Shown here piece after piece: positions 19,054 to 34,097 of a DNA stretch of 35,522 bases. Both the position numbers and the translations under genes were made by a program. Below the pieces are notes generated by a model. It had not been told where the DNA came from. It did no database searches and saw only the letters and a program-made list of their open reading frames with translations. The stretch comes from a virus. Position 1 is the first letter of the stretch. The number at the start of each line of letters is the position of its first letter. The stretch spans positions 1 through 35,522 of IMG/VR virus record IMGVR_UViG_3300006853_000010, one strand, 5' to 3'.

Positions 19054-19062
19054 TTATTTTCT

Positions 19063-19088: not shown

Positions 19089-19090
19089 AA

Positions 19091-19969: not shown

Positions 19970-19971
19970 CT

Positions 19972-19997
19972 CTTTACCTTTGGATTGTTTCGTTAAG
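19972..19997 (-). promoter_or_regulatory. 26-bp dyad repeat, copy 6
   Basis: CTTTACCTTT-N6-TTTCGTTAAG on the + strand. It overlaps the TAA stop of the HNH gene and ends 3 bases before the PAPS-reductase-like start. Outer six bases of each arm fit the consensus; inner bases differ. Confidence 0.65.
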
Positions 19998-20343
19998 ACT
20001 GAAACGGCAACCACTGTTCGCCACGCGCCAGCCTTGCCGCTATCCGATTCTCGACGCGCCGGCGCATATGATCATCACGGTCAAAATCCAAATGACACTT
20101 CTGACAAAGCGCGGCCAAGTTCTCTTCCCTCACGTCATGCAAATCGTCTTTACTCCCAGGCTTCCCATCGGGCTTATCGATCCCCAAGTGAGCGACAGTC
20201 AAAATCACTTTGCTGCCTGTGATCGGATGAGGCTTGTAGTTTTCGGCTCCGCACCACTCGCAACGATTCTCTGCCCTCTCGAATCGCAAACGGCGGCTGA
20301 TCTCATGCCAGTCAGAAGGATAAAGTTTGTAGTCGATCGGCAT
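19993..20343 (-). CDS. HNH endonuclease
   Basis: This 116-residue protein contains CEWCG (28-32), AHLG with His52, and a C-terminal NLAALCQKCHLDFDRDDH (75-92): the two CxxC zinc pairs and the HNH catalytic residues of a McrA-like nuclease. The GGAG ribosome site is 8 bases upstream. Stand-alone HNH proteins of this size occur in phages near packaging or replication genes; here it is the first gene beyond the candidate origin, so a nicking or recombination role in replication is possible. It may alternatively be a free-standing homing nuclease. Confidence 0.88.
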   Translation of the reverse strand: MPIDYKLYPSDWHEISRRLRFERAENRCEWCGAENYKPHPITGSKVILTVAHLGIDKPDGKPGSKDDLHDVREENLAALCQKCHLDFDRDDHMRRRVENRIAARLARGEQWLPFQS

Positions 20344-20386
20344 TTTCGGGCTCCGTTTATTAGATTCTACCCTCTAATGTAAAAAC

Positions 20387-20737
20387 TTGACCAAATTGGC
20401 CTAAACCCTTTGGCTACAACGCCGTACTACGTTTAAAGGGTTTACCGTACTAATCAAAAACGCCATCTGTAAGTTATTGATTCTTGGTTCGTGGTCAATT
20501 CAGTGGTCAAGTTTTTTGACCCAAAAATCGAAAAATTGACCTGAATTCTCCCCGGTTTGCACACATGGGGGGGGGTATACCGGAAAAAGTTGACCAATCT
20601 GACCTGAGCATCTAAAGCACAGATACGAAAGGAGATATTGTGGTCAATATATAGAAAAAAAGTTGACCAATTTTTATTATTTATTGACCTAAAGGCCCGG
20701 ATTTTCCCGTTTAGGTCAATTAGGTCAATTTGGTCAA
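20387..20737. other. Candidate replication origin: 12 TTGACC/GGTCAA repeats
   Basis: In about 350 bp, TTGACC occurs (either strand) at 20387, 20493, 20505, 20516, 20536, 20590, 20642, 20663, 20684, 20714, 20723 and 20732. Fewer than one is expected by chance. The last three are in tandem at 9-bp spacing (TAGGTCAAT type). Between them lie an AT-rich tract (20669-20684), a run of nine G (20567-20575) and a 10-bp inverted repeat. The region lies between the replicative helicase gene and HNH, in the only large gap of the early block (20344-20822). I find no credible gene in it. Iteron-like arrays next to a helicase typically mark an origin. Confidence 0.75.
20402..20452. repeat. Inverted and direct repeats at the origin edge
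   Basis: TAAACCCTTT (20402-20411) and AAAGGGTTTA (20435-20444) are perfect inverted copies; CCGTACTA is repeated at 20422-20429 and 20445-20452. This may be a regulatory site for HNH transcription or part of the origin. Confidence 0.7.
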
Positions 20738-20822
20738 TGTTTTTCACCCTACCTCTTTCCTGGGAGAAACGAAAAAACACCTTTTTGCCGATTTTAGAAA
20801 CATTTTGGTTACTAAAATCATT

Positions 20823-23114
20823 TCATTTCTCTCCATCGAAGATCGCAGACAAAGGAATAGCGACGGCATCGAGCCTAGTGCGGGGAGTGCGTGTCTTGTT
20901 CCCTCTTCCCTTGTCTTTCGCTGCAATCATCCCTTTTTCATCGAGACGCTTTACAAGGATTGATTCCGAAACTGCGATCCCTTCACCATTCCGATGCCCT
21001 TGTGCGTTCGCAATGCCGTAAGCCGATTTCATTTCGAGATAAAGGATGTTGTTCTCAACCCATCCAACGCATTCCCCATTCGGCCGGCCGTCGCGCCAAC
21101 CGCACAGATGTCCAATCTCCGAAGGCTGGTCGCCATCAATTGTTTGCAAATTGGCGCGGCCGGAAGTCAAAGCGCTCCGAAGTAATTGAATGAAGTGATC
21201 GGCGGGATGCAAGGACGCTTGTTGCGCTTGCTGATCTTGTCCAGCGATGGAGAGTGATTTCCATATCTCTTTCCATAAAGTCTCGCCTTCTTTTTTGCTG
21301 ATGGCTTTGGCGTCTACCGCGGCCCATAGCCACACCTTCCAACTTGCGCCAAGATGCGCGATGGTCGTGGCCTGCCGCGCGTGTCCCTGTGGAGCATTGT
21401 TGAGTTTTTCACGGAGAGTAAGACGCTCTTTGTCGAATTGAGTTTTGGTCTTATCTCGATTGCCTGCGAGATGGCTCAGGAACGTCGCAAGGCTAAAGGC
21501 TAATTCTCCTTTCGCGGCTGATTGCTGCATTTTGGTGAGGGCTTCGCTTGTGATCATTCCCTTATCAATCGATACGATGTGTAGGCGGGCCTGGAGACTC
21601 ATTCCTCTCGGCAAATCCTCGCCACTTGAGATTGCCAACCCGCGCGGTTCTTTCGTTAGCCGTTCCGACATGTCTTGCTGTAATCGCCCTCTGCCTGTGC
21701 GATTTCCTGCAGCTCGGCCAACCCGCTCAGCTTTGGCGTGTAATTCTTCATCGTGTCGCTTTTGGCCGTTTGGGGCGAAGTCGTCAATAACCATGATTGC
21801 GTCTTTCGCCGTGAACAGTTTCACCAAGAGAGTGTTGGCTGTGTCGTCCCAGTTGGCCGGCATGGTGAGACGGTTGAATCCTGGGCCGAAGAAAGATTGA
21901 ATCAACCCGGTAATTTCCGACTTGAAGCATCCACTCTGCCCTACCACATAAACAGAATAATCAATCTCCCCCAACGTGGATGCGAAGACAGCCCCCAACA
22001 ACGGCACGGTCAGGGCCAGCGGAAAAGCCCGGAGAAATTTCAAAGTAAATGTGTAGGCTTCCGGTATGGCGTCGCCTGTCGCGGGATCTGGCAACACGAA
22101 GAATCGCAAGGAGTGAGGCAGCATTACCGCGATGTCAGCGCGATTGCCTTCGGCTGTGATGCCCCCGCCTCCATGTAGATAGCACCATTCATCTCCGATC
22201 TGGCGCCATCCTGTATGAGCGTAGACAACGCGAGACGCGAAGGAGGGCGACAGTTGTTTGATGGCGTATTGCGCATGGTTGCCCATGCCAGGGCAGACGC
22301 CCGCCTTCGCCCCGAGTTGAGATGTAACCCATGACATCGCATCGAACTTTGATGAAGGGATTTCGATTCGTCGAGTATCGCCTCTCACTGTAACCTCCAC
22401 TTCAAAAATACGTTGTTCTTCCGAAGATCCATCATCGGCAATAACCTCAGAAACGATCTTCGCCATGAAATCAGTCACTTGTTTTGTTTCAGGCCCATAG
22501 CGACCTGTGTTGCGAAACCAAATCCCAGATGACGTGTTGTAGTAAGACTGTTTGATCGTTTGGCTTCGCGGGATTGAATCAAGGAATTCTTCGATCTCTG
22601 CCGGCGACGCCCCATTGCCCGCCATACGCAAAAGCGTTTCAGCTTTCTTCGCGGCCTCGCGTTTGAAATTGATATCCGTAAGCTGTTTGATCAATCCGGG
22701 CATGGTTGCAGGGCCGGCTTCTCTACCGCTTACTAAGCTTGCGATGTAGGCCGGCCCTCCGACCTTATCGAGTTGATGGCGTCCGTTTAAATGGTCTTGT
22801 AGAGTCATGGGATTGATTTCCCATCCTCGGGCCTGCATGTCGACCATCGCCTCAAAAATTATTTTGTTGGATTGAATCTGAAGTAGGTTTTTATTTAGGC
22901 CAGCTTCGACCGACTTCTGTAACAGGCTAACTCCGTCCATGAGGATCAGTCCGAGCGCCTCACATTCCGCGCCCTCGGCAAGTGGTAATTCGACCTCCCC
23001 GGATGGATGTTTGCGCGCTGGATCTTTGGCGCGCTGTGATTTGGGTGTTGTCTTTGTCGGGGGCGTCGTTATTTTTTTCGACGGCGTTTCTGATGATGAT
23101 GATGTATTGCCCAT
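20823..23114 (-). CDS. Replicative helicase: DnaB-N-like domain plus DUF927-like ATPase
   Basis: This 763-residue protein has a low-complexity basic N-terminus (1-45), then a DnaB N-terminal-like helical domain (about 46-180: ECEALGLILMDG, then GGPAYIASLVSG, as in DnaB primase-binding domains). It is followed by a large domain with Walker A VGQSGCFKSE (391-400) and Walker B AIMVIDDFAP (439-448), the layout of DUF927/superfamily-3-like ATPases of phages and integrative elements. The C-terminus (about 650-763) contains LCGWRDG and a winged-helix-like end. It likely loads at, and unwinds, the adjacent repeat cluster. No primase, polymerase or SSB gene is recognised in the window, so host enzymes must be used. 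The fusion of DnaB-N to this ATPase type is uncommon. Confidence 0.85.
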   Translation of the reverse strand: MGNTSSSSETPSKKITTPPTKTTPKSQRAKDPARKHPSGEVELPLAEGAECEALGLILMDGVSLLQKSVEAGLNKNLLQIQSNKIIFEAMVDMQARGWEINPMTLQDHLNGRHQLDKVGGPAYIASLVSGREAGPATMPGLIKQLTDINFKREAAKKAETLLRMAGNGASPAEIEEFLDSIPRSQTIKQSYYNTSSGIWFRNTGRYGPETKQVTDFMAKIVSEVIADDGSSEEQRIFEVEVTVRGDTRRIEIPSSKFDAMSWVTSQLGAKAGVCPGMGNHAQYAIKQLSPSFASRVVYAHTGWRQIGDEWCYLHGGGGITAEGNRADIAVMLPHSLRFFVLPDPATGDAIPEAYTFTLKFLRAFPLALTVPLLGAVFASTLGEIDYSVYVVGQSGCFKSEITGLIQSFFGPGFNRLTMPANWDDTANTLLVKLFTAKDAIMVIDDFAPNGQKRHDEELHAKAERVGRAAGNRTGRGRLQQDMSERLTKEPRGLAISSGEDLPRGMSLQARLHIVSIDKGMITSEALTKMQQSAAKGELAFSLATFLSHLAGNRDKTKTQFDKERLTLREKLNNAPQGHARQATTIAHLGASWKVWLWAAVDAKAISKKEGETLWKEIWKSLSIAGQDQQAQQASLHPADHFIQLLRSALTSGRANLQTIDGDQPSEIGHLCGWRDGRPNGECVGWVENNILYLEMKSAYGIANAQGHRNGEGIAVSESILVKRLDEKGMIAAKDKGRGNKTRTPRTRLDAVAIPLSAIFDGEK

Positions 23115-23189
23115 GTGTGCTGCTTTCTTTTTATTTGGGTGAGGTCATTGTTAAAGCTCTGTCGGGGATTAGTTCGGGGCAAAAGGTCA
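23115..23189 (-). promoter_or_regulatory. Leader of the helicase gene with a partial dyad
   Basis: CATTGTTAAAG at 23146-23156 resembles the right arm of the 26-bp dyad, and a CTTTTTATTT element lies 26 bases away. The ribosome site of the helicase (AAAGAAAGCAG) is weak, so translation may be kept low. Confidence 0.35.
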
Positions 23190-23561
23190 TCAGGCTCGCG
23201 CCTCCTGTCCCCCTGAAGATTCAAGCCAGGCGGCAATCTCTGCGATTGTCTGCCGCTCAACTTCGTGAAGGTATGACACGTCGGCGGCAAGTTCATGATC
23301 GATGCCCAACATCTCCGCAAGGATCATCGTTCCGAGTCCCCACAGGTATTTGAGCGGGTCGTTCAGGCGTTGGTCATATCGCTTCATGAAATCATCGTGG
23401 GCTGTTTTGAAGTCGCCGCCATAGAGTTCAATGACGCCTGCGCCGAGCGCGCAAACTAAACATTGATTATCCTTGGCGCTAATGTGATAGCTAGAATCTT
23501 CGACTACTCCAGGCCGTTTACTGCCGGCTTGCATCACTCGTGCTAGTTCTCCTCTGTTCAT
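23190..23561 (-). CDS. Unknown early protein
   Basis: This 123-residue protein has GAAAGGAGATTTC before its ATG at 23561. The N-terminal part reads RGELARVMQAGSKRP, the middle CLVCALGAGVIELYGG, and the C-terminal half is helical (YLWGLGTMILAEMLGID, ERQTIAEIAAWLE). The tone is that of phage proteins that hold a conserved NQCLVCALGAG-like core; I do not know the function. It lies next to the helicase and could be a loader or accessory factor (inference only). Confidence 0.75.
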   Translation of the reverse strand: MNRGELARVMQAGSKRPGVVEDSSYHISAKDNQCLVCALGAGVIELYGGDFKTAHDDFMKRYDQRLNDPLKYLWGLGTMILAEMLGIDHELAADVSYLHEVERQTIAEIAAWLESSGGQEARA

Positions 23562-23607
23562 TTTGAAATCTCCTTTCGGTTGGCTAGAATGTGGTTAATC
23601 AATATCG

Positions 23608-23823
23608 CTAAACACTCAGGGCTGTGGTGATCAATCGCCGCAGCCTCTTTGTTTTCTCCCGAATCAAATTCGTTGTGATCTCTTGCCACGTTCTCTTTCG
23701 AGGGATGCGCGGCAGAATGCGCGTTCTATAAGGGTCGCATTTGATTTGATTGCCGCCGAGCGTGGCGATCCGGTGTGTTGATAGGTCTACTGTCGGGGCG
23801 TTTGATATGTCGTAAATATTCAT
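23608..23823 (-). CDS. Small basic protein, unknown
   Basis: This 71-residue protein has CCGGAGACACACCC before its ATG. Its second half is basic (RILPRIPRKRTWQEITTNL, REKTKRLRRL) and may bind nucleic acid. The first half is short strands (YDISNAPTVDLSTHRI). No family recognised. Confidence 0.7.
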   Translation of the reverse strand: MNIYDISNAPTVDLSTHRIATLGGNQIKCDPYRTRILPRIPRKRTWQEITTNLIREKTKRLRRLITTALSV

Positions 23824-23881
23824 GGGTGTGTCTCCGGTGAGTTGAGATTGTTGATTGAATAATTCTTGCGCCCCGTTTACT

Positions 23882-23914
23882 TCCCTCTCCGATGGGCGCT
23901 CGACCGGAGAGGGA
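23882..23914. promoter_or_regulatory. 10-bp perfect hairpin in a gene gap
   Basis: TCCCTCTCCG (23882-23891) and CGGAGAGGGA (23905-23914) with a 13-base loop, in the 99-bp gap between the genes at 23823 and 23923. There is no T-run on the - strand, so it is more likely an mRNA processing or stability element than a terminator. Confidence 0.65.
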
Positions 23915-23922
23915 GAGCTTGT

Positions 23923-24162
23923 TTATCCCTGCGCTAGTTTGGACAGTTGCCAATATTCAGGATTGCCGGGTTTTTCCATTTCAATTAGGCGTTTAGCTCG
24001 CAACGAATCGAAGACACGAAAGTCGATAAGCCTGAGAACTGGCGCGCCCCAAAAGCAAACCTCGGTTCGCCCATAGGAGACGGCATATCGAATCAGCCAA
24101 TTCTTGTTTGCTTTCAATTGATCGATGACTTGTTTTTGTTGGGGTGTGAGTCTGATTGTCAT
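23923..24162 (-). CDS. Small globular protein, unknown
   Basis: Start ATG 24162 (AAAGGAGAGGGC upstream; longer frame lies in the neighbour); 79 residues. It begins with a helix (TPQQKQVIDQLKANKNW), then YAVSYGRTEVCFWG and VLRLIDFRVFDSLRAKRLIE, ending in a strand. This helix-strand pattern with the LxxxRVFDSLRAKRLIE segment resembles a winged-helix DNA-binding domain. Possible small regulator; not certain. Confidence 0.7.
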   Translation of the reverse strand: MTIRLTPQQKQVIDQLKANKNWLIRYAVSYGRTEVCFWGAPVLRLIDFRVFDSLRAKRLIEMEKPGNPEYWQLSKLAQG

Positions 24163-24515
24163 GCCCTCTCCTTTCTGATCGTCAATTCTCCGGGTTTCAA
24201 ACCAAGCGCATGGCGCGCTCTGTTCTGCGCCCAAGCTCTAAACTCTTCGGCGTCTGCAAAGCTGCGTTTCTTTGCGAGAGCGATGTATTCAAGTTCTTGG
24301 CGAAGGCGGCGTATCTCAAGAGTTTGTTTATTCGTCTCTTCAGCCGCCTCTTTCAAATCGTCCAATACACGGCGAAGGGTTAAGACCTCAGCCATAAGGG
24401 CGTTGTAATCGAGAAGCGTGGCTTCTACCTCGCTAACCGTGGCGCATATGGCATGCCCTGGTGATTTGATCTTTGTGGCGTGAGCCAGATTGCCGCGCAG
24501 TTTTTCAATGCTCAT
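24159..24515 (-). CDS. Coiled-coil protein, unknown
   Basis: Start ATG 24515 with GGAGGATTTCTCA upstream; 118 residues. Long heptad-like stretch: VEATLLDYNALMAEVLTLRR, LDDLKEAAEETNKQTLEIRRLRQEL (quoted in parts), then FRAWAQNRARHALGLK. Reads as an extended coiled coil. Flanked by ATGA overlaps on both sides. Function unknown. Confidence 0.75.
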   Translation of the reverse strand: MSIEKLRGNLAHATKIKSPGHAICATVSEVEATLLDYNALMAEVLTLRRVLDDLKEAAEETNKQTLEIRRLRQELEYIALAKKRSFADAEEFRAWAQNRARHALGLKPGELTIRKERA

Positions 24516-24616
24516 TGAGAAATCCTCCAGCCAATAAAAATTACTGTCGCCCATATGAAAGCTCCGGCGATTGCGCTGATTGCGATTGCGCGCCAGACCT
24601 TGAAATCACTGTTCAT
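24512..24616 (-). CDS. 34-residue single-span membrane protein
   Basis: ATG 24616 follows AAAGGAGAAACCC; the frame reads MNSDFKVWRAIAISAIAGAF then IWATVIFIGWRISQ and stops at 24512, overlapping the next ATG. It is essentially one transmembrane helix with short ends. Tiny early membrane proteins of phages can be superinfection-exclusion or host-takeover factors; nothing specific is seen here. Confidence 0.8.
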   Translation of the reverse strand: MNSDFKVWRAIAISAIAGAFIWATVIFIGWRISQ

Positions 24617-25061
24617 GGGTTTCTCCTTTATTGGGCGGCTCAAGAGCTTCAATTGCCGCGCTCGATGGATGGCCGGGCCATCGTTCATCTTGGCCAATAA
24701 ATACGATGTGAAAATATGGCGTTGAGCCAAGCGGGTCGCGCGAAGTGATTACCGGGTCTTCTGTTTCATCCCAATTATCAGTGTTGGCGTAAAACTCTAA
24801 CGCCTTGCCATAGCGGGCCGCTCTCTCTTCGGCTTCCCTACGCTCTTTGACTGCAATTCGCACTAGACCGTCATGCTTTGCGCATTCAATCCCATCGCGT
24901 TCTGTGATCAGTTCGCGCAGGCGTTCGATCTCGGCTTCGGCCTTCTCTGCGCGCTGTCTGGCTTCAGTTATTTTGGCGTTGGCGTTGTCCCATCCATCTA
25001 TCGTGTCTGATACTTTATCGAGAATTTTTCTTTGGCGTCTTCTCTTCAATTGATCACTCAT
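24606..25061 (-). CDS. Coiled-coil protein with C-terminal globular domain
   Basis: This 151-residue protein starts at 25061 behind GGGGGGAAGTACAA. The N-terminus is basic (LKRRRQRKILDKV), followed by a long coiled coil (EARQRAEKAEAEIERLRELI, VKERREAEERAARYGKALEF) and a short strand-rich end (GSTPYFHIVFIGQDERWPGH). No family recognised. It overlaps the 34-residue membrane protein gene by 11 bases. Confidence 0.75.
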   Translation of the reverse strand: MSDQLKRRRQRKILDKVSDTIDGWDNANAKITEARQRAEKAEAEIERLRELITERDGIECAKHDGLVRIAVKERREAEERAARYGKALEFYANTDNWDETEDPVITSRDPLGSTPYFHIVFIGQDERWPGHPSSAAIEALEPPNKGETHEQ

Positions 25062-25366
25062 TTGTACTTCCCCCCATTGATGATCGTCGTAAGTGTGTTT
25101 TGAATCGCCCTCCGTCTCCGGCGTCTCTCGCTCAATAAATCAATCACGGCCATCTCTTCGCGGGTCGCTCTCTCTTCGGCCCTGCGAACTTGCGCGGCCA
25201 TCCAGCGTTGAACGGCGTTGAAGGAGAAGACCACGCGACCACCCAACTTGATGCGCGGAATTGAATCCGTCCCGCATCTCCCCTTCTTCACGGTATGAAG
25301 ATCAAGGCCGATCAGTTCAGCGACCTCTTTGAAGCTCAGAAAGCGGTCGGGTGTTTTAGAGGGCAT
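25058..25366 (-). CDS. MerR/excisionase-type helix-turn-helix protein
   Basis: Start ATG 25366 behind AAAAAGGAGCAATAGCC; 102 residues. Residues 8-55 (FLSFKEVAELIGLDLHTVKK, RIKLGGRVVFSFNAVQRWM) form the HTH_17/excisionase-type fold used by Xis and MerR-like DNA-binding proteins. The C-terminal half is basic with RRRRRR. It could be an excisionase for the integrase at 28542 or an early transcription regulator; location in the early operon fits either. Confidence 0.82.
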   Translation of the reverse strand: MPSKTPDRFLSFKEVAELIGLDLHTVKKGRCGTDSIPRIKLGGRVVFSFNAVQRWMAAQVRRAEERATREEMAVIDLLSERRRRRRAIQNTLTTIINGGKYK

Positions 25367-25949
25367 GGCTATTGCTCCTTTTTGCGACTTCACAAAGCCA
25401 TTCGGCCAATGCTTGCGGAGTATGCTCGCGTTCTGATTTTGTTATTTCGGGTCGCTTGCCGTCCGCTTTTCGTTTTGAACTCTTCACAACGAAAAGCGGA
25501 TCGCCCATGCAATAAGGGATTGATGGCAAATCGGCCGGCTCAATTCCGACGATATAAAGCCAGGTGGCCTTATCCGCTTTGTGTCCAAACCACCATTGCG
25601 AAACCCAAAGCGTATAGCCGTTGAAATCGTCTCTCTCGTTTTGGTATGGCAATCGTGCGGCTTCCCAAAGTGTCGAACCAGCTGGATGTTCCAACACTCC
25701 ACCCCACTTGCGAACTTGCTCAACGGCCCACAACGCAAGCTCTCGCTCTCCATCTCTCGGCTTGGCTAAGTGTCGAAGCCTGCCCCAGGCTCTACACGGT
25801 GGATGAGCAATCACCGGACAGCCTCCGGGCCAATTGCGAGCGTCACGATTGATGTCCCATACGTCGCAATCGGGTAGCGATTTATAGATGGAATCTGTTC
25901 TTGCGAAGAGTACGGCAATCATATGCAGACACGTCTGTACGTGCGCCAT
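25356..25949 (-). CDS. Putative methyltransferase-like protein (AHPPCRAW type)
   Basis: ATG 25949 is the upstream start; ATG 25922 (MIAVLFARTDSIYK) fits the family better, but neither has a good ribosome site. Residues include CPVIAHPPCRAWGRLRH, GERELALWAVEQVRKWGG and VLEHPAGSTLW. These blocks characterise a phage/bacterial family usually annotated as hypothetical; the PPC motif before a helix and the EHP motif resemble cytosine-C5 methyltransferases (PC and ENV motifs), so a Rossmann-fold methylase or nucleotide-binding enzyme is possible. This is an inference. It overlaps the HTH gene by 11 bases. Confidence 0.65.
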   Translation of the reverse strand: MAHVQTCLHMIAVLFARTDSIYKSLPDCDVWDINRDARNWPGGCPVIAHPPCRAWGRLRHLAKPRDGERELALWAVEQVRKWGGVLEHPAGSTLWEAARLPYQNERDDFNGYTLWVSQWWFGHKADKATWLYIVGIEPADLPSIPYCMGDPLFVVKSSKRKADGKRPEITKSEREHTPQALAEWLCEVAKRSNSHAL

Positions 25950-25992
25950 CAAGTCGCTAGTGGGGGAGCGGCTTATAGGCGCGGATTATTGG

Positions 25993-26220
25993 CTAGTTGA
26001 CTTCGGCTTTGGTCTTGCGACCGGCTTGTTTGTTGCGGGATTTGGAATTGGAAACGGAGCGCTTAGAAATAGGCGCAACTGGCGGGGCATGCGCGTGGTA
26101 ACGCTCTTTGAGGATTATAGATATTTGGTTGTTGAGGCTACGAAATTCGCCATCGGCTTCACTTTTTAGCAAATCGTAGAACTCAACCGGAATAGAGATT
26201 GAAAAAGTTTTGGTTGTCAT
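25993..26220 (-). CDS. Ribbon-helix-helix regulator (leftward)
   Basis: Start ATG 26220; 75 residues. TKTFSISIPVEFYDLLKSEA forms strand-helix and FRSLNNQISIILKERYHAH the second helix of an Arc/MetJ-type ribbon-helix-helix domain, which binds DNA as a dimer with the strand pair in the major groove. The tail is basic (SKRSVSNSKSRNKQAGRKTK). No ribosome site is present, but a promoter fits so close to the ATG that the mRNA would be leaderless. First gene of the early block and divergent from a second ribbon-helix-helix gene, it is a strong candidate for a lysogeny-control repressor. Confidence 0.85.
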   Translation of the reverse strand: MTTKTFSISIPVEFYDLLKSEADGEFRSLNNQISIILKERYHAHAPPVAPISKRSVSNSKSRNKQAGRKTKAEVN

Positions 26221-26231
26221 AACGGGGGATG

Positions 26232-26259
26232 TATATAACGGGCCACACACAGAAGTCAA
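26232..26259 (-). promoter_or_regulatory. Leftward promoter of the early block
   Basis: On the - strand TTGACT (26259-26254), 16-bp spacer, TATATA (26237-26232). Transcription would start near 26225, about 5 bases before the ATG at 26220, giving a leaderless message. The -35 box is 4 bp from an inverted-repeat arm that could be an operator. Confidence 0.7.
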
Positions 26260-26262
26260 CAG

Positions 26263-26322
26263 AAAAACACTGAAACACACCGAATAACCGCTTTAATAAT
26301 AGATGACTCATTCAGTGTTTTT
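26263..26322. promoter_or_regulatory. Operator-like 12-bp inverted repeat between divergent regulators
   Basis: AAAAACACTGAA (26263-26274) and TTCAGTGTTTTT (26311-26322) are perfect inverted copies 36 bp apart. The 190-bp gap between the two ribbon-helix-helix genes holds both, next to the leftward promoter, with the AT-rich CTTTAATAAT in between as a possible rightward -10. The arms are 48 bp start to start, which would allow looped binding by ribbon-helix-helix oligomers. Confidence 0.7.
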
Positions 26323-26410
26323 TGGTATTCAACGGTGAGAATCCCAGAAACTAATGGCCGGGCGTCGTGGGAACAACGCGGGTGTTTTTAACTAAAAAGG
26401 AGTGTGCCTA

Positions 26411-26689
26411 ATGATTGTCCTGTCATTTGTCCCTAAAGGAGCAATCCCCACAATGGATAAAGAACAAGAACAGCGAAACGAGGAACCGAAGCCTCGATCA
26501 ATCATTCTCCCAATGTACGTTTGGGACATGGTAGAGAAAGACGCTAAGCGTTGCCGTCGATCTATAAACAAGCAGATCGAAGCTATTCTTGTGGTGTTTT
26601 ATGGCATCGAATCCAGCGTCAATATAGACGAAGATACTTTGATTTCAGAATCAAACACTCGCAACCCGAAACTGAAGAAAACAGCATAA
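26411..26689 (+). CDS. Ribbon-helix-helix regulator (rightward)
   Basis: Two in-frame starts both have good ribosome sites: ATG 26411 (AAGGAG 8 bases before) for 92 residues, and ATG 26453 (AAGGAG 11 bases before) for 78. The core RSIILPMYVWDMVEKDAKR and CRRSINKQIEAILVVFYGIE gives strand-helix-helix of the Arc/MetJ type. The two regulators resemble each other only in fold. If both starts are used, the two forms would differ by a hydrophobic N-terminal extension (IVLSFVPKGAIPT) that might affect dimer or membrane interaction. Likely opposing partner of the leftward regulator. Confidence 0.83.
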   Translation: MIVLSFVPKGAIPTMDKEQEQRNEEPKPRSIILPMYVWDMVEKDAKRCRRSINKQIEAILVVFYGIESSVNIDEDTLISESNTRNPKLKKTA

Positions 26690-26713
26690 TCCCCTGCCCC
26701 ATAGGAGGCTCCC

Positions 26714-27151
26714 ATGAAAATTTCAATTCTGTTTTTGCTTTTGTGTTTATTGCCCTTCCCTTCAATTGGACAAGAACTAGCCAGCGAATCTATCTTGCTC
26801 AACGGGACATACCACGTGGCAGAACGAAACTATCAGGTCTTTGAGTTCTCTTTCGACCGAGATCAAGGCGCTGGTCAGATAGGCGGTAGAATCAGCGTTC
26901 AAGGGCCAGCCAGTTTCGATATTCAGGTTTGGATTGTGGATTACGCCAACCTGGAGAATTTTATAAACAGGCAGGCGTTTGATGCTTATCTCAATACGGG
27001 TAGGGTCAGGCTGAAGACATTTGATGTGACTCTTGAGCCGGGGCCCTACTATCTGATCTTCGATAATAGATTCTCAGCGATCAACGACAAGAATGTTCAT
27101 GCCGGAGTGGCTTTACGGCAGTTCAAGCGTAGACATCGGGAGAGACCGTAG
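26714..27151 (+). CDS. Secreted protein, possible lysogenic-conversion factor
   Basis: This 145-residue protein has a clear signal peptide (KISILFLLLCLLPFPSIGQ) with cleavage near residue 19-20, and a beta-sandwich-like mature part: NYQVFEFSFDRDQGAGQIGG, ISVQGPASFDIQVWIVDY, LEPGPYYLIFDNRFSAIN. The PGxYYLIFDNRFS block resembles GOLD/pre-peptidase-type beta domains found in secreted proteins. AGGAGG lies 7 bases upstream. It is expressed from the regulator/integrase block rather than with the virion genes, so it is probably made in the lysogen and acts in the periplasm or outside. Its target is unknown. Confidence 0.8.
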   Translation: MKISILFLLLCLLPFPSIGQELASESILLNGTYHVAERNYQVFEFSFDRDQGAGQIGGRISVQGPASFDIQVWIVDYANLENFINRQAFDAYLNTGRVRLKTFDVTLEPGPYYLIFDNRFSAINDKNVHAGVALRQFKRRHRERP

Positions 27152-27161
27152 ATAGAATGGC

Positions 27162-27234
27162 GCCCATCGCGGGCATACTCAGGTCGAAACCCTGAGCATG
27201 CCTAAAACCTGGGATTGGCAGGTACGCAATGGGC
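27162..27234 (+). ncRNA. Candidate three-way-junction structured RNA
   Basis: In the 155-bp gap between two genes, 73 bases fold on paper into a closed three-way junction. Closing stem: GCCCATCGCG (27162-27171) with CGCAATGGGC (27225-27234), one mismatch. Hairpin 1: GGCATACTCAGG (27172-27183) with CCTGAGCATGCC (27191-27202), one mismatch, loop TCGAAAC. Hairpin 2: ACCTG (27207-27211) with CAGGT (27219-27223). Linkers are only 0, 4 and 1 bases, a compact design. It is not a tRNA and lacks the CTGANGA core of hammerhead ribozymes. It could be a riboswitch or a stable RNA for the downstream membrane protein gene; the - strand can pair equally. Confidence 0.6.
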
Positions 27235-27306
27235 AGTTGTTTTTAAGCCATAGACTTAGACTTAGCAACCCCCTTTCTTGCCTGCCTCAAACAAAGTGAG
27301 GCGACA

Positions 27307-27993
27307 ATGAACAACATTCAAGAAGCGTTCAAATATAACAGGGCGCGAAAGAACGTGATCATCGGCGGCATGATTATCTTGCTGGCAATCACCGCGCTCA
27401 GTTGCGTGTCTAGTTTCATGATCTATCGTGATGGATTTGCGGACTTCCCGCCGTCCTTCCAGGTGGTCCTGGCGCTCTTTGCTGTCGTCGTGGTCGAAGG
27501 CGCGTTCGTTTGGTTGGTTTACGGCTTTACGCGGGCTTTCTCTTCCGGGACTGAGCGATTGGTATCTCTCGCCGGCATGGCCTTTTTGGTCGTCGTGATG
27601 CTGATTAATCTCATTACGCATTTCATGATGGTCAAGGGCATTTCCCTTTCCGAATTTCAAGAGGGATGGATTTCCTGGGGGGCTGTGAGTGTGTTTATCA
27701 CGGTTCTCTTGATTGTCTTGTTTATCACTCTGGCCGATCCGGTGATTCGCCTTGTTCGTCTGGAGCTTAGGTATAAAGGCAAACAGGAAGAGAAAATCTT
27801 GGAAGCCAAAACATCCGCGCTCGACAATCAAAAACTTCAATCTGCGATGGAAGAAAGAGCGGACATTGAAGCGGACGCCCTAGCAACACGGATTCTCGAT
27901 CAGGGGCGAATCGCCGCTCCGGCTTATGGTCATGCAGTAAGACCTACACAGCGCAAGGTTGGCTATCTTGGAGAGGATGACCGCTTGGACTGA
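27307..27993 (+). CDS. Four-helix membrane protein with cytoplasmic coiled coil
   Basis: This 228-residue protein has four predicted transmembrane helices: VIIGGMIILLAITALSCVSS (about 17-36), FQVVLALFAVVVVEGAFVWL (about 51-70), LVSLAGMAFLVVVMLINLI (about 85-103), AVSVFITVLLIVLFITLADP (about 126-145). A charged helical tail (ELRYKGKQEEKILEAKTSAL) and basic C-terminus follow. AAAGTGAGG is the ribosome site. It lies in the lysogeny block; four-helix early/lysogenic membrane proteins often act in exclusion of other phages, but nothing here is diagnostic. Confidence 0.8.
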   Translation: MNNIQEAFKYNRARKNVIIGGMIILLAITALSCVSSFMIYRDGFADFPPSFQVVLALFAVVVVEGAFVWLVYGFTRAFSSGTERLVSLAGMAFLVVVMLINLITHFMMVKGISLSEFQEGWISWGAVSVFITVLLIVLFITLADPVIRLVRLELRYKGKQEEKILEAKTSALDNQKLQSAMEERADIEADALATRILDQGRIAAPAYGHAVRPTQRKVGYLGEDDRLD

Positions 27994-28010
27994 CGACCGG
28001 GAGCGTCGAA

Positions 28011-28463
28011 ATGAAAGCGCGCGGCGCTCCCGTAATCGCCCCGTTTGTAGCGCCCACTTCAACTATCGTTTCCCCTGTTTTGCGGAATAGCCGCAAAGAT
28101 TCCGCAAGTCGTGTAAAGGCATCGAAGAAGACCGAGAGATTGAATGTCACGAAATCACGATCAGCGGGTCAAGAATGCTGGACGATCAAGACAGGCAAAC
28201 GCGGCGAAAAGCAAGCTGATTTTCGCGTTCGCTTGGCAGACTCCGGCTTTCGTGTTGTGTTGAGTTTTTACGATGATTCCAACGTTCGGCGTGAGAGATA
28301 TTGTTGCTATCTGAGCGCTGATGAATGGCGAGAATCGAAACGTAAAAGCTTGACTGATTTTGCTAGATTGATTGCTGACAAAGTTGACGCTCGACATGTA
28401 GCCGGCGATCTTGACGCCGCAAGGTATCAGGAAATTGCGCCACGACTATCTGTAATCGCATAG
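28011..28463 (+). CDS. Unknown protein before the integrase
   Basis: This 150-residue protein has GGGAGCGTCGAA before ATG. The N-terminal ~50 residues are low-complexity (PVIAPFVAPTSTIVSP, then KKTERLNVTKSRSAG). The C-terminal part is globular: QECWTIKTGKRGEKQADFRV, GFRVVLSFYDDSNVRRERYC, DEWRESKRKSLTDFARLIAD. The second half has an integrase-arm-like, DNA-binding feel, but I recognise no family. It may be an accessory factor for integration, given its position directly before the integrase, or a regulator. Confidence 0.7.
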   Translation: MKARGAPVIAPFVAPTSTIVSPVLRNSRKDSASRVKASKKTERLNVTKSRSAGQECWTIKTGKRGEKQADFRVRLADSGFRVVLSFYDDSNVRRERYCCYLSADEWRESKRKSLTDFARLIADKVDARHVAGDLDAARYQEIAPRLSVIA

Positions 28464-28497
28464 AGCGACAAGAACGACAAACCAGCAAAGACAGGAG

Positions 28498-28533
28498 CGA
28501 CAAAGGCCGGGGGATGATCTCCGGCTTTTGTCG
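28498..28533 (+). terminator. Terminator/hairpin ahead of the integrase
   Basis: CGACAAAGGCCGG (28498-28510) pairs with CCGGCTTTTGTCG (28521-28533), 13 bp with one G-U, 10-base loop, with TTTT within the 3' arm. It lies between the 28463 stop and ATG 28542 and would limit integrase read-through. Confidence 0.75.
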
Positions 28534-28541
28534 TTGAGAGC

Positions 28542-29660
28542 ATGCAAATCAAAAAAGTCTGGCGCAAAGATCTGGGCGAATGGCGCTACAAAATCGACGT
28601 GACTGTGAATGGTCAAAGGTTCAGGCGGGCGGACTTCGAGAAGAAGTCAGAAGCCGAAGACGCAATATCGGCTTTGCGGTTGAAAGCGAGATCTGACCGC
28701 TACGGCCTGACTCTACCAAAGCCAAAAATCACACTTGCATCTCTAAAGAGTAGTGTGACGAAAGATCGAAAAGACATGCGAATTTTTAAAGAGTTTGTCG
28801 AGCTGGTTGGCCCGGAGACTTTATTGACTGACCTAACGCGGGCCGATTGGAAAAACTATGTTGACTGTCTCAAAGCCCGGAAATGCAAGCCCGGAACGGT
28901 CAACAGGTATATGGCCGAGGTCTCGGCTATTCTGTCTTCAGCGTCAGAGAGATTCCCGGATCTAGGCGAATGGCGATGTCCTAAAATCCCATGGCTGACA
29001 TGGCCTCTCGGTCGCAATAGAGTTTTATCCAAAGAAGAGATTTCAAAAATTCTCTTTGCTCTGAAGGCCGAGAGACAACATCACGAACAATATTTTTCCG
29101 TCAAGAATCGGGCCGAGGTCTTTGATCTGTTTCGGTTGATGCTTCTCACAGGCGCAAGGGAAGGGGAGATTTTAAATCTTAGGCAAGACCAAATTTCATG
29201 GGACTGGCGCACGGTCAAGCTTGTCTCGAAGAAAGGCGGCGGATCTGTTCGCGTTGTCCCGCTGTCTGGCTCGGCTCTGGAGATATTGCGATCTCGAAAT
29301 CAGGGCCAGAGATTCTTTTCGATCAATCGGGACAAGCTTTATAGAACGCTCGAAAGAATCGGCGTCATGTCCGGTGTGGCCTATGGAGACAACATTGACG
29401 GGGGATGGGTGATTTATGATCTCCGCCACGTTGCCGCGACAGTGATGGAGAATGCCGGCGTCCCATATAGCGCCGTCTCTGCGATACTCGGCCATAAACG
29501 AAAAGACCAAACAGCCACGTATGCCCATGCCCAGATGGAGACATTGAGAAGGGCGGTTGAAGTTCTTGAAAACCATTGTCGAGAGATTGACGGGTTTGAT
29601 ATTCCCAGATGCCATGAAATGCCCCTTGATGCCCCTTCGCCGCAGCAAGCATTTGGCTAG
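28542..29660 (+). CDS. int: Phage integrase, full-length tyrosine recombinase
   Basis: This 372-residue protein has an arm-binding-like N-terminus (EWRYKIDVTVNGQRFRRADF, 13-32), a SAM-like core-binding domain (about 70-155) and a catalytic domain (160-330). Catalytic residues are Arg206 in LLTGAREGEI, a lysine near 230, LRH at 294-296 in YDLRHVAATVM, GHK with His318 and the nucleophile Tyr327 in TATYAHA. This is the usual layout of temperate-phage integrases that join attP and attB. ATG 28542 lies directly after a hairpin terminator and has no strong ribosome site, so expression is limited. It differs clearly from the short FimB-like enzyme at 10930. A C-terminal extension after the tyrosine (MPLDAPSPQQAFG) is longer than usual. 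Confidence 0.93.
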   Translation: MQIKKVWRKDLGEWRYKIDVTVNGQRFRRADFEKKSEAEDAISALRLKARSDRYGLTLPKPKITLASLKSSVTKDRKDMRIFKEFVELVGPETLLTDLTRADWKNYVDCLKARKCKPGTVNRYMAEVSAILSSASERFPDLGEWRCPKIPWLTWPLGRNRVLSKEEISKILFALKAERQHHEQYFSVKNRAEVFDLFRLMLLTGAREGEILNLRQDQISWDWRTVKLVSKKGGGSVRVVPLSGSALEILRSRNQGQRFFSINRDKLYRTLERIGVMSGVAYGDNIDGGWVIYDLRHVAATVMENAGVPYSAVSAILGHKRKDQTATYAHAQMETLRRAVEVLENHCREIDGFDIPRCHEMPLDAPSPQQAFG

Positions 29661-29931
29661 AAGTCTTATAATGTCAATGGTTTCAACCATGTTTGGAGAC
29701 CATAAATATCCCCGCCAAATTCTGACCGATAATCCGGTTTAAATCCTGTAAATAGCCAAATAACTAGGTTTATAGTTGGGCCTGAAAGTTTTAGCGTCCA
29801 GATTTTGCCCACAATTGACCGTGGCTGAATCGAAAAGCTCAGGCCATAGGGCAGGGTAGGGCAACGGGAAAAACTCTAAAATCGGCTTGGTTCTGCTTGA
29901 AAGTCGCAGGGTATAGGGAAGGACAGGAGAC
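29661..29931. other. Candidate attP region downstream of the integrase
   Basis: No gene is seen in this 271-bp stretch. CCGGTTTAAATCCTG (29733-29747) resembles the T-arm end of tRNA genes, a common attB core. GCAGGGTA occurs at 29851-29858 and 29906-29913 as direct copies that might be arm-type integrase sites, and GGTTTCAACC is a palindrome at about 29679-29688. The position next to the integrase gene is typical of attP. The core assignment is inference. Confidence 0.5.
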
Positions 29932-29959
29932 AAAAAAGGGCTGAATCTCTTCAGCCCTT
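29932..29959 (-). terminator. Terminator for the leftward block
   Basis: AAGGGCTGAA and TTCAGCCCTT (29936-29945 and 29950-29959) form a 10-bp perfect stem with a 4-base loop; on the - strand it is followed by TTTTTT. It lies 26 bases after the stop of the small membrane protein gene and ends the leftward operon. Confidence 0.9.
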
Positions 29960-29984
29960 ATCAGTAGGATGTCATGCCAAACAA

Positions 29985-30158
29985 TCAGATCGAAGGCTTT
30001 TGCTTTGCGTCGTAAACGGCAATGAGATTCAAGACGGCTTTGACAGTGATCAATACCGTAAACACGTTGATGGCGTTAGAGCCAAGCAAGACCAACCATT
30101 GGCCTATAAGGAGCATCAGCAAGAAACAAGTCTCAGCCGTAAGAGAGGTCTTGATCAT
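29985..30158 (-). CDS. 57-residue hydrophobic protein, possible holin-like or membrane protein
   Basis: ATG 30158 overlaps the upstream stop (ATGA); the frame ends at 29985. It reads MIKTSLTAETCFLLMLLIGQ, then WLVLLGSNAINVFTVLITVK and AVLNLIAVYDAKQKPSI. It holds two hydrophobic stretches separated by a short NAIN turn, so two membrane spans are likely, with a basic end. Size and layout suit a class II holin, but no endolysin is adjacent and this block is not known to be late, so the role is uncertain. It is too short to be seen in ordinary gene lists. Confidence 0.75.
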   Translation of the reverse strand: MIKTSLTAETCFLLMLLIGQWLVLLGSNAINVFTVLITVKAVLNLIAVYDAKQKPSI

Positions 30159-30547
30159 TGCCCTCTTCTCCCTCCTCCTCCGACTCCGACAATCCGACCG
30201 GGCTGGACAGCGCCTTGCATTTCGGCTTGGGCCTGCAACTGCGCGGTGATTTCTTCTTTGATATTGTTTTTGCGATTGGCCTTTCGATCCTTCAAAAGTC
30301 TGTCGAGAGTGATCATGTCATCAAGGCCAAGATCGTATTCTTCATCGTTGATCATCGTCAGTATCCATCCGTCGCCCTCTTCGGCTTCAGCAAGACTGGC
30401 GATGTTGCCCAGGCTGATTGCGGCTTTGCCGTTGCAGATCGGGACAAGGCCGAGAGAGAAAGTGATAAATTCAAAGTCGAAAGGCAAAGGCTCTACGATC
30501 TCAGGCTCCAGGGCCACTTGTTCAAGTTCAAGATTATTGTTTTCCAT
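30155..30547 (-). CDS. Acidic protein, unknown
   Basis: This 130-residue protein has GGAAGGAGAGCC before its ATG. It begins with an acidic, Leu-rich segment (LELEQVALEPEIVEPLPFDF), has a globular centre (FSLGLVPICNGKAAISLGNI, GWILTMINDEEYDLGLDDMI) and ends in Gly/Arg (RIVGVGGGGRRGQ). No family recognised. It ends in an ATGA overlap with the small hydrophobic protein gene. Confidence 0.75.
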   Translation of the reverse strand: MENNNLELEQVALEPEIVEPLPFDFEFITFSLGLVPICNGKAAISLGNIASLAEAEEGDGWILTMINDEEYDLGLDDMITLDRLLKDRKANRKNNIKEEITAQLQAQAEMQGAVQPGRIVGVGGGGRRGQ

Positions 30548-30920
30548 CTTCTTGGCTCTCCTTCCTTCGTGAAAAATCCATGATCACAAAATTATTGACA
30601 ACCGTTGGCATGTGACAGCAATAGCCGTCGTTCAAGATTGCCTGTATCTCTTCTTCGACTTTGGCCGGGAGCGTTCGATCAGTGAATCGAAAGACTCTGA
30701 CCTTGTGTTCGGTCTTCGGGGGCGTAGTAAAAGCCATTGGTGGTTTGATTGAATCCAGACAGCGACCAAGCATTTTCATGAGTGGTCCCATCGGATTATC
30801 GAAAAACTCATCATTCATCATTGCTTCAAGAGGGAGCGGATAGCCGGCTGAATCGAAAACGCCTTCAGTCTCAAGCCTGATCGGCTCGTTTGGGACTTCT
30901 GTTTTATTTTCTTCAACCAT
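30534..30920 (-). CDS. Unknown protein of the leftward block
   Basis: Start ATG 30920 behind AAAAGGAGACGAAC; 128 residues. Contains VFDSAGYPLPLEAMMNDEFF, MGPLMKMLGRCLDSIKPPMA, then a strand-rich part VRVFRFTDRTLPAKVEEEIQ and MPTVVNNFVIMDFSRRKE. Mixed alpha/beta globular appearance. It overlaps the downstream gene by 14 bases. Function unknown. Confidence 0.75.
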   Translation of the reverse strand: MVEENKTEVPNEPIRLETEGVFDSAGYPLPLEAMMNDEFFDNPMGPLMKMLGRCLDSIKPPMAFTTPPKTEHKVRVFRFTDRTLPAKVEEEIQAILNDGYCCHMPTVVNNFVIMDFSRRKESQEDGKQ

Positions 30921-31113
30921 TGTTCGTCTCCTTTTCGTCAAGTTCTTGCTGTCGGCAAAGAACAAGAATAACCATCGGCGGGCAGATAATTTGCGCGTCG
31001 ATGTACCAATCGTCTTTTAGATAGCCTGTCAGATCGACGTATTCTTCGACGGCGTTAAATTTCAATTGCTTGTATTCTTGCTCGTATTCAATTCGTCTTC
31101 TTCGTCTCGGCAT
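30913..31113 (-). CDS. Small protein with basic N-terminus, unknown
   Basis: Start ATG 31113 behind AAAGGGGAAACTTC; 66 residues. It begins MPRRRRRIEYEQEYKQLKF and continues with a strand-rich part (WYIDAQIICPPMVILVLCRQ). The ends overlap both neighbours. No family recognised. Confidence 0.7.
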   Translation of the reverse strand: MPRRRRRIEYEQEYKQLKFNAVEEYVDLTGYLKDDWYIDAQIICPPMVILVLCRQQELDEKETNNG

Positions 31114-31453
31114 GAAGTTTCCCCTTTCGTCTCCGTGATGCGGGTTTTGAAATCTGCGAATGATTGTCATGGTTTGCTCTCTCTCGATAGCAGGCTTGTA
31201 ATGTTTCGATTGCTGATTTGACTTTTGTTGCGGCAGCGGGAAGAGTGAAAGCCATCACGGCCAATGGGCCGTATTTCTTCGAGGACAGCATAAGAAGTTC
31301 ATCAAAGACCTGACCAACTGTCTGTGTTGACCAGCGTTCAAAGCGCTCGCCGTACTCAGGATTCTTTGCAAGCCAATCCTGAAGCATTGCCCATCGGCCA
31401 TCAGGCGTGAGGGCTTCGAGGTCGGGGAATAGTGAAGTGATGTCGAAGTTCAT
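31088..31453 (-). CDS. Helical protein, unknown
   Basis: This 121-residue protein starts at 31453, overlapping the upstream stop (ATGA). Mostly helical: LTPDGRWAMLQDWLAKNPEY, VGQVFDELLMLSSKKYGPLA, VKSAIETLQACYRERANHDN, with a basic tail (KPASRRRKGKLHAETKKTN). It overlaps the next gene by 26 bases, a long overlap for this replicon. Function unknown. Confidence 0.72.
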   Translation of the reverse strand: MNFDITSLFPDLEALTPDGRWAMLQDWLAKNPEYGERFERWSTQTVGQVFDELLMLSSKKYGPLAVMAFTLPAAATKVKSAIETLQACYRERANHDNHSQISKPASRRRKGKLHAETKKTN

Positions 31454-32859
31454 GATTCACTCTCCTGACTCTCTTTGATAAGCCTCTGCAATTCGGCACA
31501 CCACTCTTTCGCATGACTCAAAGCCGCGATCTGTTCGCCGTTCGGAAGGGTCTTCACAAACTCAATCACTTGATCTGTGTTCATTGCCCCAAGCAAATCA
31601 ATGTAGCCGTCAATTGAAAGATGCGGGGCTTGATCGTTTATCGCGTCGGCGTAATTGATCAATCTGTCGAAAGCTATCTTGGCCGGGACGTTTCGCCGAC
31701 AATGATCGATCACAAGCGCGAGGGCTTGCTCTTCTGTCGTCATCGTTTGTTGCCTGGGAGTGGCATCCGAGCCATTTTCAACAACGCTCGACGCGCCTTG
31801 CGACTGGCCTTGCGCTGGTAGACTCTGCCGAAATTGATCAACTTGCCCGTTTTGATGTGGGGGATTTTCAGATTCAGAACTCTGCGCCAGTGGCGTCGTA
31901 GCCATCTGCGTTTGCCCATTGTTTTGACCTCCAGGGAACAAACCTCCAAACAGACCGTTAGGGAATAACGCCCTGACGACTCCTTGAACCGTTGGCGCTA
32001 ATTGGCCTGTCGTTATTGAGTCTTTTAAGATGTCTGCCCACCACGGCGTATCATCGGCAACCCCCTTACCGCCGAAGATTGTTTTTGCAAGACCGCCTGC
32101 AATCTTCTCCATCACGTCGGGATTTTTCGTGATGAGTTGCAGCGCGGCTAATTCGGGGTCAGTTGTTTGTTGTTGCTGTTGTGTTTGCTCAGGAGCGAAT
32201 CCGTAAGCCTCGCGCATGAGCTTTGCCATCTCAAGTTGTTCTTTCAAAGCCTCGCGCTGAGTTTTCATGATATCTTTGATCGACATCGGTACTTGCTGCG
32301 CTTGCCCATCGCCATTGACCGATTGATAGATCACTTGCGGGGAAGTGGGGTCATTTGGGTTGACGTGTTGAATCACAGGGCCGGCGGGTGTTGCGCTGAT
32401 GCGTTCGTCGAAGGCGTCAACAATCCGGTTGTCCATTCTGATCGTGATTCGATATTTGCCCGGACCCCACTTGCGAGCAGCGTCAATATAGTCTTTGTTG
32501 AAAATGTGTTCTTCGGTTGTGCTGTACTTAGTGCAAAACTCCGTCTCTGCCCATGAACCTCCGGCGTCTGTTTCACTGTGAACGTATCGCTCTATGTACA
32601 AACGCAGATTGCTTGTAGGTGTGACACCCTGCGCCCTGAGTTTCTTGCGCATTTCCTGAATGGCATTCTTGGTTCGCTTGCGCGGCTTATCTTCGATCCC
32701 AGTATCTTCAAACTCTTCGCCAATCTCTTCGGACGCATCTTCCACCACTTCAACCCACTCAGTTTTATGTTTGATGACCTTCTGTGATGGTTGGCTATCT
32801 TCAGCGGGTAAACGCTCGGGCTCAACGGCTGCGATTTTCCTCGGTCTACCTCTCGGCAT
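31450..32859 (-). CDS. Large low-complexity protein with AT-hook-like N-terminus
   Basis: Start ATG 32859 behind AAAGGAGTGGGA (GTG 32865 is in frame); 469 residues. The N-terminus has an AT-hook-like core (RGRPRKIAAVE) and an acidic stretch (VVEDASEEIGEEFEDTGIED). A globular part follows (NLRLYIERYVH, WGPGKYRITIRMDNRIVDAF), then Gln-rich coils (MKTQREALKEQLEMAKLMRE; QTQQQQQTTDPEL), Gly-rich FPNGLFGGLFPGGQNNGQTQ, and a helical C-terminus (DHCRRNVPAKIAFDRLINYA). KYRITIRMDN-type blocks with a following coiled coil occur in phage/plasmid proteins linked to DNA transfer or scaffolding. It may be a scaffold or DNA-organising protein; not established. Confidence 0.75.
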   Translation of the reverse strand: MPRGRPRKIAAVEPERLPAEDSQPSQKVIKHKTEWVEVVEDASEEIGEEFEDTGIEDKPRKRTKNAIQEMRKKLRAQGVTPTSNLRLYIERYVHSETDAGGSWAETEFCTKYSTTEEHIFNKDYIDAARKWGPGKYRITIRMDNRIVDAFDERISATPAGPVIQHVNPNDPTSPQVIYQSVNGDGQAQQVPMSIKDIMKTQREALKEQLEMAKLMREAYGFAPEQTQQQQQTTDPELAALQLITKNPDVMEKIAGGLAKTIFGGKGVADDTPWWADILKDSITTGQLAPTVQGVVRALFPNGLFGGLFPGGQNNGQTQMATTPLAQSSESENPPHQNGQVDQFRQSLPAQGQSQGASSVVENGSDATPRQQTMTTEEQALALVIDHCRRNVPAKIAFDRLINYADAINDQAPHLSIDGYIDLLGAMNTDQVIEFVKTLPNGEQIAALSHAKEWCAELQRLIKESQESES

Positions 32860-32939
32860 TCCCACTCCTTTCCGAGATGTGAAAAAAATTCACTAGATTT
32901 GGTGACGTTTTTATCAAGAAACCAGTGAAGACCGGATGA

Positions 32940-32952
32940 CCAGTTACACTGG
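32940..32952. promoter_or_regulatory. CCAGT-TAC-ACTGG inverted repeat
   Basis: The 13-bp operator-like dyad lies downstream of the leftward promoter, about 80 bp before the ATG at 32859. ACCAGTGAAG at 32921-32930 carries the same half-site CCAGT. Possible binding site of a regulator from this replicon. Confidence 0.5.
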
Positions 32953-32973
32953 ATTCGCTTAACAGACATAAAG

Positions 32974-33701: not shown

Positions 33702-33709
33702 GAGAAAAG

Positions 33710-34093: not shown

Positions 34094-34097
34094 GCGT

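Follow-up and report, generated by a model that had tools for sequence, protein, structure and literature searches.

The locus described here raises the question of whether the main lysis-lysogeny decision of a temperate tailed phage can be built on two homologous proteins of the ribbon-helix-helix (RHH) type. An initial annotation had proposed such a switch, in place of CI/Cro, around a short intergenic gap. We have analysed the whole stretch of DNA in which this gap lies (the window in what follows), i.e., one entire virus record in IMG/VR (35,522 bases), and we consider it somewhat probable that the two RHH proteins are indeed the main switch. What the sequence itself shows is a divergent pair of RHH-type genes with an array of repeats between them, the excisionase-like and replication genes in the operon to the left, the integrase gene in that to the right, and no match of the CI/Cro type.

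The window appears to be the nearly complete and circularly permuted genome of a temperate tailed phage, because in one related contig (L008, see below) the places matching window positions 35102–35338 and 426–1051 are only ca. 560 bases apart, i.e., the end and the start of the window are neighbors there. No completeness value is attached to the record, which may be incomplete. No tRNA was found in the window. The genes that matter for the argument are the following:

6495–8234: tail-fibre-like gene.
18526–19053, minus strand: Mu Gam-like gene, leftward operon.
20823–23114, minus strand: DnaB-like gene, leftward operon.
25058–25393, minus strand: HTH_17, excisionase-like protein, leftward operon, probable start at ATG 25366.
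25993–26220, minus strand: RHH-L, a Mnt/Arc-like RHH protein of 75 amino acids, predicted to be leaderless, at the head of the leftward (lytic-side) operon.
26411–26689, plus strand: RHH-R, a probable RHH-type protein of 92 amino acids homologous to RHH-L, with the SD AAGGAG, at the head of the operon that ends in the integrase gene.
26714–27151, plus strand: protein of 145 amino acids with a signal-peptide-like start (by eye), different among relatives, putative cargo in the lysogeny-side operon.
28542–29660, plus strand: tyrosine integrase, last gene of the rightward operon.

The integrase shares ca. 24% identity with P2 Int. Another ORF of the integrase family, a short one (218 amino acids, Pfam Phage_integrase 2.6e-38), was found at 10930–11586 on the minus strand, with ca. 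57% identity in two relatives and just 25% in the other two. Among the 62 scanned window ORFs there was also an RNA ligase (RLIG1 Pfam 4.1e-9, phrog_14301 9e-79). The early operon codes for a phosphoadenosine phosphosulfate reductase-like protein (19091–20014, minus strand; phrog_424, 6.2e-49), and at 25356–25952 on the minus strand lies a phrog_12600 protein (3.8e-71) that has at most 61% identity in Pseudomonas phages and is present also in microvirus records.

Both ORFs of the pair have the limits first annotated for them (the left one from ATG 26220 to 25993, the right one from ATG 26411 to 26689), and the gap between them, 26221–26410, has the expected 190 bp. We found four related contigs in IMG/VR, from uncultured tailed phages that form a small family together with the window: 3300049733_000280 (L002), 3300037479_000222 (L003), 3300049070_000183 (L009) and 3300049189_000060 (L008). 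They were reached from RHH-R, from the integrase, from the HTH_17 protein and from a profile of each RHH protein, some of these searches missing some of the four; the single-protein search with RHH-L retrieved none of them, and one further contig had a match of only 26% to the integrase. L008 equals L009 across the gap region, which leaves three distinct relative sequences for the gap. The divergent RHH pair was kept in all four relatives, and identities to the window proteins were 56, 54 and 47% for RHH-L and 72, 57 and 41% for RHH-R in the three distinct ones. In the relatives, the HTH_17 protein is found 3' of RHH-L with either no or one variable gene intervening, and RHH-R is followed by variable secreted-looking proteins, with the integrase last. 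The membrane-protein gene that precedes the integrase in L009 is on the opposite strand, and therefore the compactness of the rightward operon is unequal among relatives. No match to the DnaB-like gene of the window was found among them; therefore the proposed switch is conserved, and the module beyond it only in part. Among named phages there was no relative of RHH-L or RHH-R at a useful E-value, and none by DNA for positions 18000–35522. RHH-R revealed no prophage copies in genome_contigs, where the integrase had a single match, of 25%, in a MAG of Clostridia.

Judged by its profile, RHH-L is a member of the RHH (MetJ/Arc) superfamily. The top PDB sequence match of this profile was P22 Mnt (1mnt, E 0.0064), and hhalign gave it a score of 32.2 with Mnt, where the best of 150 column-shuffled controls reached 17.8, and of 25.1 with Arc, where the best control reached 15.8; the matches to Pfam Arc and RHH_5 were below the cut-off. 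The profile of RHH-R aligned to that of RHH-L over 41 columns with a score of 37.3 (the best of 200 controls reached 17.9). RHH-R is placed among the RHH proteins solely because of this homology: its scores against Mnt and Arc were equalled by six and four of 150 controls, and neither a Pfam RHH family nor a PDB entry matched it. The simplest reading of these profiles is that the two divergently placed proteins would share one fold. The original description of both genes as RHH regulators appears sound for the left one by its own profile, and plausible for the right one via the left. AlphaFold monomer models had low confidence or showed just one long helix, and no RHH structure came up in Foldseek for either protein. 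RHH folds form only as dimers, and for this reason the monomer models neither help nor refute the assignment. In the P22 record the mnt gene itself (NC_002371 14519–14770, L034) is annotated with the product “partition protein ATPase”, which is the label of phrog_2685 and phrog_795; this label is misleading for Mnt-like RHH proteins.

The order of the genes suggests which protein would do what. From 26220 downward the leftward operon runs on one strand and includes the excisionase-like, Gam-like and DnaB-like genes, and the rightward operon consists of RHH-R, secreted- or membrane-looking proteins and the integrase. RHH-L would thus be in the Cro/Cox place, because it heads the operon that includes the excisionase-like gene and those for replication, and RHH-R in the repressor (CI/C) place, because it heads the operon that ends in the integrase. 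The parallel drawn at first with lambda cI mRNA from PRM has to be turned around, since the gene predicted to be leaderless holds the Cro position and not that of CI. No other repressor of the classical type was recognised, in agreement with the original proposal: HTH_3 and peptidase S24 had no match at E 1 in the window or in any of the four relatives, with search controls positive in 14/14 and 13/14 genomes, respectively. Pfam searches at E 0.01 with 62 further window ORFs gave HTH_17 as the sole regulator-type family (325–1635 had a weak winged-helix family score below the cut-off, E 0.0089). At 0.001 at least 25 PHROG families were matched, and the excisionase/regulator and DNA-binding labels among them are those that also fall on the HTH_17 protein. 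This family was found at one place per genome, always in the leftward operon, in all five genomes.

Transcription toward RHH-L would start very close to its first codon, at the following promoter:

26230–26259, minus strand: predicted leftward promoter, TTGACT-16-TATATA or TTGACT-18-TATACA, predicted RNA start at ca. 26223–26225.

The first of these arrangements, already pointed out by the initial annotation with an RNA start ca. 5 nt before ATG 26220, is present (TTGACT at 26259–26254, 16 nt, TATATA at 26237–26232), and the second scores about equally with our approximate sigma-70 matrix (9.0 v 8.7), giving predicted leaders of 3–5 nt. The promoter score alone is ordinary, as it was reached by 88 of 500 shuffles; rarely, in 3 of the 500, did such a score coincide with a leader between −1 and 6 nt. 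A stricter, simple promoter scan omits the site, the second hexamer being without the required final T. In all four gaps the top-scoring site was a leftward promoter whose −35 reads TTGACT or TTGACA, and the distance from the first base of the −35 to the A of the ATG was 39 nt in the window, 40 in L002, 39 in L003 and 46 in L009, corresponding to predicted leaders of 3–5 nt in the first three and of 12 nt in L009. Between the window and L003 just 13 of 34 columns agree from the −35 to the ATG at an equal distance, and therefore it is the spacing that has been kept and not the sequence.

The bases 5' of the RHH-L ATG are pyrimidine-rich and contain no ribosome site in the window, L002 and L003, with SD energies of +1.2, +0.6 and +1.0 kcal/mol, compared to −10.8 kcal/mol in L009, where (as in L008) GGAGG precedes the ATG. 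The value for ATG 26220 was the weakest among 38 window starts (hand-picked, one per ORF), 27 of which have −5 or below, so that the reported lack of a ribosome site is borne out. RHH-L is probably translated from a near-leaderless mRNA, as far as these predictions go, and one phage family seems to hold both kinds of start for a single gene: two of the three distinct relatives share the predicted leaderless layout, which is not family-wide, given the GGAGG of L009/L008. We think it unlikely that the RNA starts farther upstream or that translation begins at an upstream start such as GTG 26280, an arrangement that would be compatible with either role of the pair discussed below. The frame is open up to this GTG, the promoter score by itself is unremarkable and L009/L008 use an ordinary SD. 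Against it, the upstream extension is dissimilar among relatives, whereas M1, as encoded by the ATG, can be aligned in all four sequences; besides, an SD is absent in three of the four, and the top promoter of every gap suits the ATG start.

The gap contains repeats that overlap these signals. The perfect 12-bp inverted repeat that had first drawn attention to it (AAAAACACTGAA at 26263–26274 and TTCAGTGTTTTT at 26311–26322, arms 36 nt apart) is real, as none of 300 dinucleotide shuffles reached 12 bp (mean longest 6.9). We do not consider it an operator by itself, since the relatives lack it in its perfect form (the longest inverted repeats in their gaps are of 8 bp, often reached by shuffles) and its arms hold copies of an array with a 10-bp period:

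26247–26284, plus strand: operator-like array, four repeats of [AC][CA]ACNGAA at 26247, 26257, 26267 and 26277, exactly 10 bp apart.
26311–26318, minus strand: inverted fifth copy, ACACTGAA, just 3' of the predicted rightward RNA start.

The stretch 26247–26286 is thus made of four 10-base units with this common core; it covers the left −35 (26254–26259, overlapping units one and two) and the upstream part of the rightward promoter. Over both strands of the 35,522-bp window there are four exact copies of ACACNGAA, all in the gap, at 26247, 26267, 26277 and, inverted, 26311, compared to a mean of 0.04 in gap shuffles, and none of 400 shuffles was as high in lag-10 similarity as the window gap. 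The L002 gap has five copies of ACACNG (0 of 1000 shuffles), three of them in a common 10-bp register (5817, 5827, 5857). Neither the ACACNGAA array nor the ACACNG motif was found in the L003 and L009 gaps. That of L003 showed only weak 10-bp similarity (P 0.075), and L009 has a perfect palindrome, GCACCACAGTGGTGC, at 4835–4849 inside the spacer of its left promoter, a possible candidate operator of another immunity type. The missing array in these two relatives would look like operators that diverge with immunity type, and would also look like chance loss. Matching RHH strand residues to operator sequence by eye gave no clear assignment of protein to site.

The −10 of the likely rightward promoter and two RNA-like elements are conserved:

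26295–26300, plus strand: conserved −10-like AATAAT of a putative rightward promoter, with a poor −35 (from alignment and scores), predicted leader of ca. 104 nt.
26356–26424, plus strand: conserved block of the leader, predicted to form a long hairpin in which GGC-GGGCGTCGTGGG pairs with the start-codon region of RHH-R.
25925–25982, minus strand: conserved noncoding RNA-like element of 58 nt directly 3' of the RHH-L stop, one copy in each of the five genomes.

The right −10 sits just beyond the last unit of the array and reads AATAAT in the window and L002, GATAAT in L003 and AATACT in L009 (RATAMT in the alignment). The block GGCGTCGTGGGAA..ACGCGGGTRTT 5' of RHH-R is the best conserved noncoding DNA in the gap; its pattern was found in viral_contigs only in the four known relative contigs and at one exact place in the window. 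The consensus fold of 26356–26424 had an energy of −18.8, compared to a mean of −9.6 for shuffles that kept the conservation classes, and one in 1000 of these was as low. Two-sided covariation was found in no pair of the hairpin, and among 300 dinucleotide shuffles of the single sequences 0 did as well in L009, 17 in L002 (weak), 75 in L003 and 88 in the window. For longer stretches, folding was without significance in all four sequences (156, 103, 159 and 26 of 200 shuffles). A leader peptide in 26356–26386 was discarded, as its frame is broken by indels of 1 and 2 nt in L003 and L009 (by eye). The element after RHH-L consists of a hairpin, AAG.CGCU/AGCG.CUU, and an outer GC stem, followed by GACGTGTCT. 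Its inner stem is invariant and its outer stem is partly compensated and partly broken, with two-sided change in three of 18 pairs. The consensus fold was matched by 8 of 1000 shuffles and the single-sequence folds by 3 (window), 15 (L002), 67 (L003) and 114 (L009) of 200. Rfam gave no credible match. The nutR and put sites are located after the first lytic gene, and by analogy the element would be in a nut/put-like position, which we take as a lead only.

Put together, the switch could work as follows. RHH-R would be the repressor that stays expressed in the lysogen, and its oligomers on the ACACNGAA array, with units 10 bp apart and hence on one face of the helix, would shut the leftward promoter, whose −35 lies within the array. 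RHH-L, as the first lytic product, would be the counterpart of Cro and would lower the rightward promoter, probably at the ACACNGAA array and the inverted copy; with an mRNA that begins 3–5 nt before the AUG it would need no ribosome site. The leader of RHH-R (ca. 100 nt) can fold in such a way that the start codon of this gene is covered, and translation of the repressor would thereby be held low. The fully specified version, i.e., a primary decision by the two RHH proteins alone, with a repressor masked by its leader hairpin, a leaderless partner in the Cro position, a shared array of 10-bp iterons and an RNA element after RHH-L that acts on lytic-operon transcription like lambdoid nut/put, is offered tentatively, as a possibility that we would not yet call probable.

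A different role for the pair has to be weighed against that of main switch. The nearest known arrangement is the immI region of P22 (NC_002371 14519–15022), where two homologous RHH repressors are also divergent (Pmnt, Pant) with operators in a short gap. The likeness is one of layout, the operators in the present gap being putative; the P22 gap is of 90 bp with other operators, and P22 mnt has the ribosome-site-like GGAGTG. This region is described as the control of ant, distinct from c2/cro, the primary switch of P22 (PMC2629481), i.e., mnt/arc, the best-known divergent RHH pair, is accessory in a phage that also has c2/cro. By the same token the pair described here could govern a side function (antirepressor, exclusion or cargo), the true immunity repressor being an unrecognised protein elsewhere, and the cargo-like secreted proteins after RHH-R do differ among relatives. 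We regard this as rather doubtful. Unlike immI, the pair stands where the integrase operon meets the one for excisionase and replication, the genes after RHH-R (26714–28463) have no antirepressor-like PHROG or Pfam match, and HTH_3 and S24, as said above, are unmatched in the window and the four relatives, with no c2/cro-type match. A repressor of another, unrecognised fold may nevertheless be encoded elsewhere in the genome.

The repeats themselves would also fit plasmid-like maintenance, as iterons for partition or of a replication origin, with the RHH proteins being ParG-like or involved in replication control. ParG- and CopG-type RHH proteins bind iteron-like repeats of this sort. For ParG, binding to iterons is described in the part of the literature cited here (PMC6669507). 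RHH-L also has weak matches to phrog_2685/795, “partition protein ATPase”. However, this label is a misnomer, as P22 mnt bears it too, no ParA/ParM-type Pfam match was found in the 62 window ORFs plus those scanned singly, and an integrase gene is present. We therefore consider maintenance of this kind very unlikely, and return to the reading of the RHH pair as the main switch.

In the P2 switch the C repressor goes with int, and Cox with the early genes. The window resembles this type in having the gene in the repressor position and the integrase in one operon and an excisionase-like gene on the replication side, but it has two RHH regulators and not P2 C, and its excisionase-like HTH_17 protein is a later gene and not the divergent partner. 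The CI and Cro of the telomere phage PY54 are helix-turn-helix proteins and not RHH, which sets PY54 apart from the window. Its cI and cro mRNAs were both found leaderless by RACE, as stated in the section cited (PMC4488713), and RHH-L would be similar, as a putative switch gene with a predicted leaderless mRNA. PY54 is a better comparison than lambda cI/PRM, because RHH-L sits in the Cro place and in PY54 cro, besides cI, is leaderless. Outside tailed phages, F55 of SSV1 is a lysogeny regulator of the RHH type that binds tandem repeats in promoters; going by its description it is akin to the proposed switch in maintaining lysogeny and in binding such repeats, and differs in belonging to an archaeal fusellovirus and in being a single RHH protein, with no divergent RHH partner in the account cited (PMC5569661). 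YosL of SPbeta, for which an RHH domain of the Arc type is predicted, is treated alongside Mnt and Arc in PMC10516654. In the portion of the open-access literature covered, we recognised no report of a primary switch in a tailed phage made only of RHH proteins.

This phage family offers a natural comparison for the leaderless translation of one gene, with three sequence types without a ribosome site and one with it. Phage RHH repressors are best known as side regulators, as in P22 immI, or in archaeal viruses, as in SSV1 F55. If the reading proposed here is true, the logic of CI/Cro can be rebuilt on another DNA-binding fold, without a helix-turn-helix partner, and this would account for the failure of searches for HTH-domain repressors in some temperate phages.
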